Positions 7,246-13,042 of a DNA stretch of 64,000 bases are shown one piece after another. The position numbers and the translations under genes are program-made. Under the pieces are notes generated by a model. That model made no database searches, was not told the origin of the DNA, and was given only the letters and a program-made list of their open reading frames with translations. The DNA lies in assembly GCF_003046475.1 (NCBI RefSeq), contig NZ_PZZZ01000002.1, positions 124,001 through 188,000 on the forward strand. The letters run 5' to 3'. The DNA is from Mycoplana dimorpha. Lineage in GTDB: Bacteria > Pseudomonadota > Alphaproteobacteria > Rhizobiales > Rhizobiaceae. Within the stretch, counting starts at the first letter, position 1, and every line of letters begins with the position of its first letter.

Positions 7246-7500
7246 ATGAAACAGAAGATCCGTGAGCTGCTGGCCAAGCATGGCGGCCTGGCCGTCGCTG
7301 CCGACCAGATTGCCGACGATGCCGATCTCTACGCGGCAGGCATGTCGTCCTTCGCATCGGTCCAGATCATGCTGGCAATCGAGGAGGCCTTCGACCTCGA
7401 ATTTCCGGACAGCCTTCTCAATCGCAAGTCGTTCCAGAGCGTTGCTGCGATCACGCGCACCGTGGAGGGGCTCGTGAGCGGGGCGGAGGCGGCCGAATGA
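7246..7500 (+). CDS. Acyl carrier protein-like carrier protein (partner of the aa:CP ligase)
   Basis: An 84-residue, acidic, all-helical carrier protein. The phosphopantetheine site is Ser35 in GMSSFASVQ, replacing the common D-S-L, a form I associate with carrier proteins of amino acid:carrier-protein ligases rather than fatty-acid ACP. Helix II continues IMLAIEEAFDLEFPD, typical of the fold. Expected role: hold an amino acid as a thioester on its phosphopantetheine arm in the cytoplasm, loaded by the ligase encoded at 8666. ATG 7246 has GGAG eight bases upstream; the frame runs open further upstream but lacks a ribosome site there. Its stop overlaps the next gene's ATG (ATGA). No phosphopantetheinyl transferase is in the window, so a housekeeping one must modify it. 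Confidence 0.9.
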   Translation: MKQKIRELLAKHGGLAVAADQIADDADLYAAGMSSFASVQIMLAIEEAFDLEFPDSLLNRKSFQSVAAITRTVEGLVSGAEAAE

Positions 7501-10576: not shown

Positions 10577-13042
10577 ATGGATCATACGGACGAGACTGGT
10601 CTGCGGCACAGCAGGAGACTGGATCGCGGCTGGCGCCTCTGCCTGACGGAAGCCGGTGCCTGGACGGACCCGACGATGCGCTCCGACGATGTCGAGGTGC
10701 TGGACGCGCCCGTGCCCGGTACGGTGGCGGGCGCACTTGAGCGGGCCGGCCGCTTCGACCGCGCCGACCCCCGGCCGCTGAACGATCTCGATGCCTGGTA
10801 TTTCCTTGACCTCGCCGGTGAGGAACCCGGCCCGGCGGTGCTGCTTCTCGAAGGCCTGGCGACGATCGCGGAAGTCTACTGGAATGGCGAGAAGCGGCTC
10901 GTCTCCGATTCGATGTTCGTCGCCCATGATCTGGACGTCGTCCTCACCGGCAGCGATCGGCTCGCCATCTGCTTCCGCGCGCTTGCACCGCATCTGGCGC
11001 AGCGGGGCCCGCGGGCCCGTTGGCGGCCGGGAATGATCGTCCCGCAGGGACTGCGGCTCGTCCGCACGACGTTGCTCGGACACATGCCCGGCTGGTGTCC
11101 GCCCGTGCATGCCGTCGGCCCCTATCGCCCGCTGCGGCTGGAAAGGCCGAAGCAGGCCGTGCCGGGCGACGTGGCGATCCGTGCGACCCTCGATCCGGAC
11201 GGCACCGGCCGGCTGGCCGTCTCGTTTCGTGCAGATGCGCTTGAAGGACCGGCCGAACTCCATTGCGCCGGAGCCAGCGTCAGGCTGGCACGGGCGGGCG
11301 ACGGCCGCTGGAGCGCCGACCTCGCGATCGCTGGTGTGGAGCCGTGGTGGCCGCACACGCACGGCAAGCCGGCCCTGCATCAGGTCGAGGTTCGCGCCGG
11401 CGGGCAGGTCCATGTAATCGGCCGCACCGGCTTCCGGCACCTGCAGGTCGATCGCGGCCGGGATGGCAACGATTTTTCGCTGCAGGTGAACGGTATTCCG
11501 GTCTTCTGCCGCGGCGCAGTCTGGACGAGCGCCGACATCGTCGACCTGCCGGGGGAGCGTGAGCGATACGAGCCGCTGCTGCAACTCGCCGTCGAAGCCG
11601 GGATGAACATGCTGCGCATCGGCGGCACGATGACCTACGAGGCAAGCCCCTTCTACGAGCTGTGCGACGAGCTCGGCATTCTCGTCTGGCAGGATTTCAT
11701 GCTAGCGAACTTCGACTATCCGGCTGCCGACCCGGAATTCGCCGCGCTTGTGCGGACGGAAGCCGAACAATTTCTCCGCCGCACCGCCGCCTCTCCGTCG
11801 CTCGCCGTGCTCTGCGGCGGCAGCGAAATGTTCCAGCAGGCTGCGATGCTCGGCCTGCCGCAGGCGAGCTGGAGCGGAACGCTGACGGATGCCGTCCTGC
11901 CCGAGGCCGTCACGGCCCTGCGCCCCGATGTGCCCTACGTCCCGAATTCGCCGTTTGGCGGGGCCATGCCGTTTTCGCCGAATGCCGGGGTGACGCATTA
12001 CTACGGCGTCGGTGCTTATTGCCGTCCCATCGAGGATGCGCGCCGGGCGGGCGTGCGCTTCGCCGCCGAATGTCTCGCCTTCGCCAATGTGCCCGAACGG
12101 GCGACGCTCGACGCGCACCTGCCGGTTCCCGCCGTTCACGATCCGCGTTGGAAGGCGCGGGTTCCCCGCGACCGCGGCGCCTCCTGGGACTTCGAGGACG
12201 TTCGCGATAATTATCTGGAATTGCTTTATGGCTGCGACCCCACCCGGCTGCGACGCGAGGATGCTGCGCGCTATCTCGATCTGTCGCGCGCGGCGATCGC
12301 CGAGGTGATGGAGGAGACCTTCGCCGAATGGCGGCGGCCGCAATCGAGCTGCAACGGCGCACTGGTCTGGACATTCCTGGACCTGCTGCCGGGCGCCGGC
12401 TGGGGCCTAATCGATTCCACCGGACTGCCGAAATCGGCCTGGCACGCCCTTCGTCGCGCCTTCCGGCCGATCCAGGTTCTCCTGTCGGACCAGGGCACGA
12501 ACGGGCTGGACGTCCACGTCCTCAACGAGAACGGCACTGCCCGGGATCTGGTTCTCGAACTGGCGTGCCTGCGTGACGGGCGGCAGCCGGTCGTCAGCGG
12601 ACGGCGCACGCTGTCGCTCGGCGCGCGGCAGAACGTGACGATCGCCGCCACCGATCTGTTCGGCGCCTTCTTCGACACGACCTACGCTTTCCGCTTCGGT
12701 CCGGCCCCGCACGACGTGACGGTGGCGACGCTGCGTGAAGCCGGGACGACCTCTATGGTCGCGCAAGCCTTCCACTTTCCGCTCGGGCGTGACGGGGCGA
12801 TGCAGCGCGGCAACGCCAGCGTGGCGCTGGAAGGGTCGGATGTTCGTTGGGCGCTGCGGATCGCCGCCGATCGGGTGCTGCAGTCGGTGCACATTGACTG
12901 CCCGGGGTTTCTGCCGTCGGACAACTGGTTTCATCTCGCGCCCGGCGAGGCGCGTGTGGTGGATCTGGTTCGGACAGACGGCCCGGAACGGCCGGCGGGC
13001 GAGGTGAACGCGCTCAACCTGGCTGCGCCCGCAAGCTTCTGA
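10577..13042 (+). CDS. Glycoside hydrolase family 2 (beta-mannosidase-like), no signal peptide
   Basis: An 821-residue GH2 enzyme. Order: jelly-roll sugar-binding domain (about 1-190), Ig-like domain (about 195-290), TIM-barrel (about 295-600), C-terminal beta domains. Acid/base Glu417 lies in LCGGSE and the likely nucleophile is Glu499 in RFAAE. WQDFMLAN (371-378) resembles the beta-mannosidase signature. No signal peptide is present, so it acts in the cytoplasm. ATG 10577 is preceded by GGAGG and follows DUF1839 by 13 bp, so it belongs to the carrier-protein operon. A cytoplasmic exo-glycosidase in a biosynthetic operon is unusual: it may work as a transglycosidase, correct a lipid-linked intermediate, or be a binding protein. 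Specificity for mannose is only a guess from family resemblance. Confidence 0.82.
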   Translation: MDHTDETGLRHSRRLDRGWRLCLTEAGAWTDPTMRSDDVEVLDAPVPGTVAGALERAGRFDRADPRPLNDLDAWYFLDLAGEEPGPAVLLLEGLATIAEVYWNGEKRLVSDSMFVAHDLDVVLTGSDRLAICFRALAPHLAQRGPRARWRPGMIVPQGLRLVRTTLLGHMPGWCPPVHAVGPYRPLRLERPKQAVPGDVAIRATLDPDGTGRLAVSFRADALEGPAELHCAGASVRLARAGDGRWSADLAIAGVEPWWPHTHGKPALHQVEVRAGGQVHVIGRTGFRHLQVDRGRDGNDFSLQVNGIPVFCRGAVWTSADIVDLPGERERYEPLLQLAVEAGMNMLRIGGTMTYEASPFYELCDELGILVWQDFMLANFDYPAADPEFAALVRTEAEQFLRRTAASPSLAVLCGGSEMFQQAAMLGLPQASWSGTLTDAVLPEAVTALRPDVPYVPNSPFGGAMPFSPNAGVTHYYGVGAYCRPIEDARRAGVRFAAECLAFANVPERATLDAHLPVPAVHDPRWKARVPRDRGASWDFEDVRDNYLELLYGCDPTRLRREDAARYLDLSRAAIAEVMEETFAEWRRPQSSCNGALVWTFLDLLPGAGWGLIDSTGLPKSAWHALRRAFRPIQVLLSDQGTNGLDVHVLNENGTARDLVLELACLRDGRQPVVSGRRTLSLGARQNVTIAATDLFGAFFDTTYAFRFGPAPHDVTVATLREAGTTSMVAQAFHFPLGRDGAMQRGNASVALEGSDVRWALRIAADRVLQSVHIDCPGFLPSDNWFHLAPGEARVVDLVRTDGPERPAGEVNALNLAAPASF

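Follow-up and report, generated by a model that had tools for sequence, protein, structure and literature searches.

Why should genes that charge a carrier protein with an amino acid lie among genes for a surface polysaccharide? A stretch of 64,000 nucleotides from Mycoplana dimorpha (Rhizobiaceae; contig NZ_PZZZ01000002.1, positions 124,001 to 188,000; hereafter the window) raises this question. An earlier note on it had described, at 7246-13042, a five-gene operon inside a surface-polysaccharide locus and proposed that it makes an aminoacyl-decorated glycan or glycolipid. All five genes are present where that note had placed them (Table 1): a carrier protein (CP), a flavoprotein of acyl-CoA dehydrogenase (ACAD) fold, an amino acid:[carrier protein] (aa:CP) ligase derived from seryl-tRNA synthetase (SerRS), DUF1839 and a GH2 enzyme, with CP, ligase and DUF1839 exceeding curated cut-offs. 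We lean towards reading the five genes as a free-standing machine, akin to a non-ribosomal peptide synthetase, that would pass an aminoacyl group to a sugar and act on an exopolysaccharide unit. Three lines point to a biofilm exopolysaccharide: co-occurrence, a predicted fold and a published mutant.

To characterize the distribution of the cassette, we surveyed 398 Pseudomonadota genomes, drawn evenly. The ligase exceeded the NF005479 cut-off in 28 (of 44 genomes with matches at E ≤ 0.001, the 16 below the cut-off were left out). DUF1839 was found in 16 of the 398, all among the 28 ligase genomes and each adjoining the ligase by coordinates, with a second copy in two; the chance probability of this overlap is 2e-21 when relatedness is ignored. 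A profile of the GH2 subfamily scored above 1,100 bits in the same 16 genomes, at the neighbouring place, and at most 282 bits elsewhere. A double alpha/beta-hydrolase gene (13092-14861), left out of the earlier note, belongs to the gene set: its profile scored above 500 bits in 17 genomes, namely the 16 with DUF1839 and G378, and at most 146 bits elsewhere; the 12 genomes that have a ligase but no DUF1839 gave no match above 500 bits. Several of these weaker matches were two adjacent partial ones, and those of G303 correspond to exosortase-A hydrolases 1 and 2, likewise below cut-off. Two of the 17 matches (G310 and G035) were counted with one TGA inside. Scoring took the top two (GH2) and top three (double hydrolase) candidates per genome, and because the profiles include sequences from some of the 16, high scores there are partly by construction and the absence elsewhere is the informative part. 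Ligase, DUF1839 and GH2, whose joint occurrence had been proposed as a check, therefore co-occur in the same 16 of 398 genomes, together with the hydrolase. In G378, which has neither a DUF1839 nor a ligase match, the double hydrolase lies near a Wzz gene (L175).

The same gene order is found in Rhizobiaceae, in other Hyphomicrobiales, in Azospirillum and in Burkholderiaceae, and Azospirillum argentinense and Mycetohabitans rhizoxinica have all five genes with an adjoining hydrolase. We compared 97 loci, the window and 96 others chosen for having the ligase (mostly Rhizobium, with some genomes held twice). The ligase was present in 97, DUF1839 in 95, ACAD in 94, GH2 in 93, CP in 87, the double hydrolase in 66, GT4 in 48, GH5 in 19, Wzz in 13 and a Wzy-like protein in 11. 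Genes of the relatives were called by codon usage, with a small script whose training set was 14 window genes; it missed some, and the GH2 genes of L171 and L028 were recovered with tblastn. The closest ligases found, 90-91% identical, come from Mycoplana azooxidifex, Rhizobium subbaraonis and kin. In a midpoint-rooted ligase tree of 41 rows, which has some long end branches, one branch with 100/100 support separates the ligases with DUF1839 (32) from those without (9). Given this conservation, co-occurrence and tree split, we regard the window cassette as an aa:CP ligase system of its own kind, with fixed partners.

Ligases without DUF1839 have other surroundings. Gene calls beside the ligase of L164 (genome G245) gave no ACAD or CP; the neighbours in L162 are an esterase, an 85-amino-acid protein, an AMP-binding ligase and a short-chain dehydrogenase/reductase, with Wzz further on, and those in L165 are a Cys/Met pyridoxal-phosphate enzyme and a homoserine succinyltransferase-like protein. 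A ligase search of a plasmid collection matched 95 records, including Streptomyces (22), Apilactobacillus (6) and Priestia (3).

Judged by its score, zinc ligands, nearby CP and lack of a tRNA-binding domain, the window ligase belongs to the aa:CP ligase family. The zinc ligands that had been called intact, C125, E170 and C273, are the same in all 11 ligases aligned, and the protein measures 303 amino acids against 522 and 527 for the SerRS structures 2cim and 3w3s. Its PDB matches are 4h2w/3mey (Bll0957). The CP has an invariant serine, S35 (22 of 22 aligned), and best matches 4h2w_C and Atu2571 (2jq4), at E 7e-29. The CP is thus Atu2571-like, and the window ligase shares with 4h2w a 14-residue segment, GRAGKMLANNQRDQ, that is absent from wild-type Bll0957; we take 4h2w to be an engineered Bll0957 made to bind Atu2571, and the segment presumably contacts the CP. 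The Bll0957 and Atu2573 ligases with their CPs thus resemble the window pair in ligase fold, zinc ligands and a small CP. The Bll0957-like locus L159 (against the Bll0957 pair, E 1.5e-215 for its ligase and 2.5e-45 for its CP) holds CP, ACAD and ligase only and, unlike the window, has no DUF1839 or GH2 subfamily member nearby. The chemistry of the aa:CP ligase family is established. PMC9437257 describes it and calls the biological role of aminoacyl-CP unknown (papers are cited here by PMC number, from partial text).

The fold of DUF1839 suggests where the aminoacyl group might go. When we searched with an AlphaFold2 model (pLDDT 91.5) using Foldseek, all 15 PDB matches at E ≤ 0.001 were AziU2/U3, CtaG or CcbD, with TM-scores of 0.54-0.61 over 320-365 alignment columns and E-values of 4e-7 to 7e-4 for the predicted model. 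CtaG and AziU2/U3 we take to belong to natural-product systems. The earlier suggestion of transfer in the manner of BtrH from butirosin biosynthesis, a papain-like enzyme that moves an acyl group from a CP to an aminoglycoside (PMC10318531), is thereby backed at the level of fold; BtrH itself was absent from the 50 fold matches listed, and Pfam BtrH_N gave no match to DUF1839 at E 0.01. An ordinary peptidase was dropped as a candidate, since peptidases scored at E above 0.01 in the fold search. According to PMC10318531, DUF1839 has a papain-like fold in which the triad is swapped to C(T/S)H, and it might process glycans at the cell wall in an acyl-CoA-dependent manner. CcbD, in turn, is CP-dependent and works by a ping-pong mechanism, taking proline from the CP onto its own cysteine and passing it to an amino sugar (PMC12945683). 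Because CcbD, which is among the nearest folds, takes CP-bound proline, we consider aminoacyl-CP a more likely donor for DUF1839 than acyl-CoA.

The lincosamide synthetase is one of the closest parallels: CcbD/LmbD and the CP CcbZ/LmbN bring a CP-bound amino acid to a sugar by way of a cysteine-protease-like enzyme whose fold the DUF1839 model resembles. It has an A-domain where the window has a SerRS-like ligase, its product is a small antibiotic, and the triad order differs, with Thr and His swapped in DUF1839. The parts of the cassette belong to known families, and the system would work like the lincosamide synthetase with a different ligase and triad.

Candidate catalytic residues of DUF1839 are Cys36, Thr134/135 and His152. 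Among the 173 DUF1839 open reading frames (ORFs) collected, which include redundant genomes, His152 is present in all and the Cys in 150; 21 of the 23 ORFs without Cys come from genomes that also yielded an intact copy. A Burkholderiaceae-type genus that falls with Burkholderia in the ligase tree (f87/g224) offers a closer look. DUF1839 occurs in 58 of its 60 genomes, as two copies in 35, three in 2 and one in 21. Twenty-one of the 35 two-copy genomes were read as single loci: one DUF1839 keeps Cys36 in all 21, and the second has lost the Cys in 20 (the exception is L200). G312, split over two contigs (L149/L150), fits the same pattern of one Cys-intact and one degenerate copy, and 18 of the 20 single-copy genomes read (of 21) kept the Cys. 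As a natural experiment, these two-copy loci support a role for Cys36. The degenerate DUF1839, altered at both Cys and Thr, is still an open frame in L152, L149/L150 and L181-L200, perhaps as a non-catalytic partner.

Papain and alpha/beta-hydrolase folds also hydrolyse, and PMC10318531 lists DUF1839 with peptidases, so DUF1839 and the double hydrolase might instead be thioesterases that edit or release the aminoacyl group, leaving a free modified amino acid as the product. We consider this improbable, given that the significant fold matches all come from natural-product systems rather than from peptidases and that the cassette is linked to glycosyltransferases, GH2 and Wzz.

The flanks of the cassette vary by lineage yet are of one sort, holding polysaccharide-type genes: a sugar-phosphate transferase (L147, L152), ManC (L152), Wzy_C with Poly_export (L151), a weak MatE match (L150), Wzx-type proteins (L153, L039), an acyltransferase (L154), GT4 and Wzz. 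Ten of the 28 genomes, representing 7 of 14 genera, have a Wzz gene no more than 20 kb from the ligase, where 0.83 would be expected (Poisson probability about 2e-8, relatedness ignored). On these proximity and co-occurrence statistics, chance adjacency of cassette and glycan genes was dropped. The double hydrolase lies within 25 kb in 13 of 16 genomes, a count that used 17 places picked by hand (later scoring gave 18 places above 500 bits). It is on the other contig in G312, with the second DUF1839 (L150), and away from the cassette in G165 and G249, near a Wzz gene (L176, L177); a second copy in G249 has no Wzz nearby (L178). The claim that the cassette sits inside a surface-polysaccharide locus therefore extends to many relatives in distant lineages; most Rhizobium loci and a conjugative plasmid, described below, depart from it.

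Amino acids borne by a carrier protein also decorate surface polymers in the Dlt and Alm systems, which use an AMP-binding ligase with an MBOAT or AlmG-type transferase. Such carrier-based aminoacylation of teichoic acid (Dlt) and lipid A (Alm) lends some plausibility to another target for the aminoacyl group of the cassette, a lipid or peptidoglycan precursor in place of a polysaccharide. We rate this as highly unlikely: exopolysaccharide genes recur among the annotated neighbours, with no lipid or murein gene among them. The window ligase is of a different class from those of Dlt and Alm, and no AMP-binding ligase or MBOAT was present among the 20 window ORFs scanned with Pfam (to 26.5 kb). 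The glycolipid product named in the earlier note received no specific support.

A link to a known biofilm polymer comes from Burkholderia multivorans (L169, NZ_CP143551). Its gene order runs from a sugar-phosphate transferase and two CRP-type regulators through CP, ACAD, ligase, DUF1839 and GH2 to a sigma-54/VpsR regulator, a 204-amino-acid protein with no Pfam hit, ManC and a beta-helix protein, and ends with two genes with weak GT4-profile matches, Wzx, a glycosyltransferase and the double hydrolase. The same kinds of protein are tabulated for BCAM1334 (a TIGR03100 hydrolase) to BCAM1340 in PMC3584217 (Table 2); BCAM1341 was matched to L169 by position only. The regulators BCAM1342 and BCAM1349 are berB (sigma-54) and berA (CRP/FNR), respectively (PMC9684580). 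The kinds and order of genes in L169 thus match the bep table and place the cassette between the Bep regulators, as a match of order and annotation rather than of BCAM sequences. By gene order, the Bep and bec loci hold the cassette beside regulators, plus a TIGR03100 hydrolase; the window locus has other glycosyltransferases and a GH5, with no ManC among the ORFs scanned. The bep papers, in the text available, define bep as BCAM1330-1341 and give their cassette no function, and no publication was found by name for BCAM1343-1348.

In a related species, 14 of the 18 genes of the bec cluster are homologous to BCAM1334-1350, and becG, a gene with an acyl-CoA dehydrogenase domain, lies between becE (cyclic-nucleotide-binding) and becL (sigma-54) (PMC5507470). 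From annotation and order, becG would be the ACAD of the cassette. Its transposon mutant formed less biofilm (0.84 ± 0.08 versus 1.25 ± 0.03) and smooth colonies (PMC5507470). The gene after the cassette in L169 is convergent, so that a polar effect, if this arrangement carries across species, would stay within the cassette.

Bep has been described as [3)-a-D-Galp-(1-3)-a-D-Glcp-(1-3)-a-D-Galp-(1-3)-a-D-Manp-(1-]n, from material extracted with 0.3 M NaOH and analysed by nuclear magnetic resonance in NaOD (PMC7084887). Since these sugars have no amine, an amino acid on Bep would be an ester, and such a base-labile ester would be stripped by the alkaline extraction. This is an argument for a test and not evidence of the ester. 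The reported Bep structure may therefore be missing an alkali-labile substituent, one with possible effects on the charge and solubility of the matrix.

Several points weigh against an aminoacylated exopolysaccharide. The fold likeness of DUF1839 is moderate (TM 0.54-0.61, root-mean-square deviation 5.6-7.5 Å, 10-17% identity), and its triad, with Thr and His swapped, follows neither the standard Cys-His-acid order nor that of CcbD; DUF1839 may work like CcbD, but as it lacks the standard order we do not class it as CcbD-type. Two of the 20 single-copy genomes lack the DUF1839 Cys (L201 has Ala; L205, on a short contig, has Ser). The proximity statistics ignore relatedness, most of the Rhizobium loci fetched have neither Wzz nor Wzy, and the Rhizobium tropici group lacks the hydrolase and GT4 in the stretch. 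Some neighbours, such as DctM, LysM, an ADP-ribosylglycohydrolase and a major facilitator superfamily (MFS) protein in L155, are unrelated to glycans, and the conjugative plasmid pRL23b2 of Rhizobium leguminosarum (L172) carries the cassette with no annotated glycan genes in 9-kb flanks, in a plasmid collection whose gene table is incomplete. On the experimental side, the becG mutant has the weakest defect among the seven bec mutants tabled (biofilm of the others, 0.43-0.66) and was not one of those complemented (PMC5507470). Three of the 18 bec genes were missed by the primary screen, two because they were absent from the library; the third, becF, was in the library and is by order probably the CP. 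Finally, the published Bep repeat consists of four unmodified hexoses, with no amino acid reported in the part of PMC7084887 consulted.

Some of these points would suit a cassette that makes a diffusible aminoacyl-sugar, lincosamide-like or a signalling glycoside, co-regulated with the exopolysaccharide but not built into it. CcbD acts on a small amino sugar, the GH2 has no evident signal peptide, the cassette occurs on pRL23b2 with no glycan genes in the 9-kb flanks and in most Rhizobium loci without Wzz or Wzy, and two clusters resembling ABC transporters by eye (c12 and c20) recur in part of the Rhizobium loci. We hold this possibility to be rather unlikely: all 16 DUF1839 genomes have the double hydrolase, whose kin BCAM1334 stands in the bep table and which has Wzz as a neighbour in L176 and L177, and the becG mutant is smooth like the other tabled bec mutants. 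The presence of all five genes on pRL23b2 does indicate that the cassette can move as a unit.

What would the flavoprotein contribute to an aminoacyl-to-sugar machine? We take MCAD-376 and IVD-254 to be the sites of the glutamate base in acyl-CoA dehydrogenases. The former was placed from a PDB-profile alignment and the YEGT motif, the latter by eye. At the usual glutamate-base site the ACAD has Ile366 in 22 of 22 sequences; position 236 is Ser in 16, Ala in 5 and Cys in 1, next to an invariant His237 (22 of 22). A standard acyl-CoA dehydrogenase was dropped as a candidate because neither known base site has a glutamate. The PDB profile matches of the flavoprotein were short-chain ACADs, followed by DnmZ (4zxv), the nitrososynthases 3mxl and 3m9v, and 4kcf. 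Dehydrogenation, imine formation and N-oxygenation are all candidate chemistries.

The GH2 matches the beta-mannosidases 5n6u and 2je8, and glutamates E417 and E498 are present in 17 of 17 sequences at both places, as in the catalytic pair of a retaining glycosidase; an editing or trimming role would be a guess. A cytoplasmic location is suggested by a crude check, which showed no hydrophobic N-terminal stretch. In the double hydrolase, domain 2 has Cys403-Asp530-His563 in 11 of 11 sequences, and domain 1 has Gly or Arg at the place of the nucleophile. A Cys nucleophile would suit transfer from a thioester. The two halves match exosortase-A-associated hydrolases 1 and 2 (TIGR03100 and TIGR03101), scoring 104.7 bits (cut-off 168.45) and 81.1 bits (cut-off 202.75), but membership was dropped because both fall under the curated cut-offs; in the window the halves are fused, and no exosortase was present among the genes scanned.

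From these parts we infer a substrate, an acceptor, an order of steps and roles for the ACAD, GH2 and hydrolase. The SerRS-derived ligase would activate a small amino acid, by analogy Gly or Ala, and load it onto the CP, where the ACAD-fold flavoenzyme lacking the usual glutamate base would oxidise the aminoacyl group. DUF1839 would then take the group on Cys36 for transfer to its acceptor, an exopolysaccharide unit made in the cytoplasm, at a hydroxyl or an amine of a sugar. Trimming or editing of this acceptor would fall to the GH2, and the double hydrolase, with its Cys nucleophile, would act on the same acyl group in transfer or editing. Our reading of the product is a small, possibly oxidised amino acid on an exopolysaccharide unit, held as a base-labile ester where the sugars have no amines. 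Only tentatively do we extend this to a fuller proposal: that the ligase, the base-less flavoenzyme and the papain-fold condensing enzyme esterify biofilm exopolysaccharides, including Bep, with an oxidised amino acid (dehydro-, imino- or N-oxygenated). The ester would be base-labile, and the alkaline extraction of the one structural study considered would have stripped it. DUF1839 thereby gains a testable activity. The combination of fixed partners, a CcbD-like DUF1839 fold, the hydrolase as a sixth member and a tie to biofilm exopolysaccharide was not found in print, nor was any function for the cassette, among the literature search results listed. Of the earlier interpretation, co-occurrence, recurring polysaccharide neighbours and BtrH-like transfer by fold hold up; it had omitted the hydrolase and used a Wzy label that is unproven.

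Table 1 Features of the cassette and its surroundings in the window.
Feature	Coordinates	Strand	Evidence
Carrier protein (CP), 84 amino acids, Ser35 in GMSSF = phosphopantetheine site	7246..7500	+	NF005480 115.7 bits, cut-off 72
ACAD-fold flavoprotein	7497..8669	+	PF02771/PF00441
SerRS-derived amino acid:[carrier protein] ligase	8666 or 8675 (ATG)..9586	+	NF005479 514 bits, cut-off 357
DUF1839	9577 or 9583..10563	+	PF08893 455.7 bits, cut-off 22.5
GH2, beta-mannosidase-like	10544 or 10577 (ATG)..13042	+	PF22666
Double alpha/beta-hydrolase	13092..14861	-	TIGR03100/03101, both below cut-off
GT2 glycosyltransferase	14851..15915 (gene call starts 15726)	-	PF00535 78 bits
Wzz/GNVR chain-length protein	4902..6941	-	PF02706, PF13807; TIGR01005 143.6 bits, under cut-off
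Polytopic membrane protein, possibly Wzy or ligase	3537..4889	-	10 hydrophobic stretches; Pfam none
GH5, hydrophobic N-terminal stretch (perhaps secreted)	2438..3532	+	PF00150 167.8 bits, hydropathy
GT4 glycosyltransferase	1231..2463	+	PF00534 91.7 bits

The glycan neighbours named for the window were found, with GT4, GH5 and the Wzz-domain protein upstream of the cassette and GT2 downstream. The Wzy-like label of the polytopic membrane protein is unproven: it had no Pfam hit at E 0.01, its model is weak (pLDDT 64), and its top fold match, the ligase WaaL, is not significant (E 0.45). A search against viral folds gave one match under E 0.001 and nothing useful. Within the cassette, the CP gene starts at an ATG with GGAGA upstream and overlaps the ACAD gene by 4 nucleotides. 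The ACAD-ligase junction is a gap of 5 from the ATG start or, by coordinates, an overlap of 4 from the GTG start; ligase and DUF1839 overlap by 10, and a gap of 13 separates DUF1839 from the ATG start of GH2. polA lies upstream of the locus and recF, named by eye from an SMC_N match, downstream.

The hydrolase and GT2 genes of the window overlap each other at 14851-14861. In congeners (L020, L021, L026), a Wzx-type gene (cluster c39) stands between the two; it had no match in the 64-kb window, nor at one other place of the same genome. Further downstream, 7.6 kb from the cassette, efp, epmA and epmB (named by eye) occupy 20678-23533, with Pfam matches to tRNA-synt_2 for epmA and Radical_SAM/LAM_C for epmB. 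These clusters occur in 71-73 of the 97 loci; epmB and CP are on the same strand in 66, with a median gap of 265 bp and a few gaps up to 5 kb. The epmA and aa:CP ligase region thus holds two non-tRNA relatives of aminoacyl-tRNA synthetases side by side.

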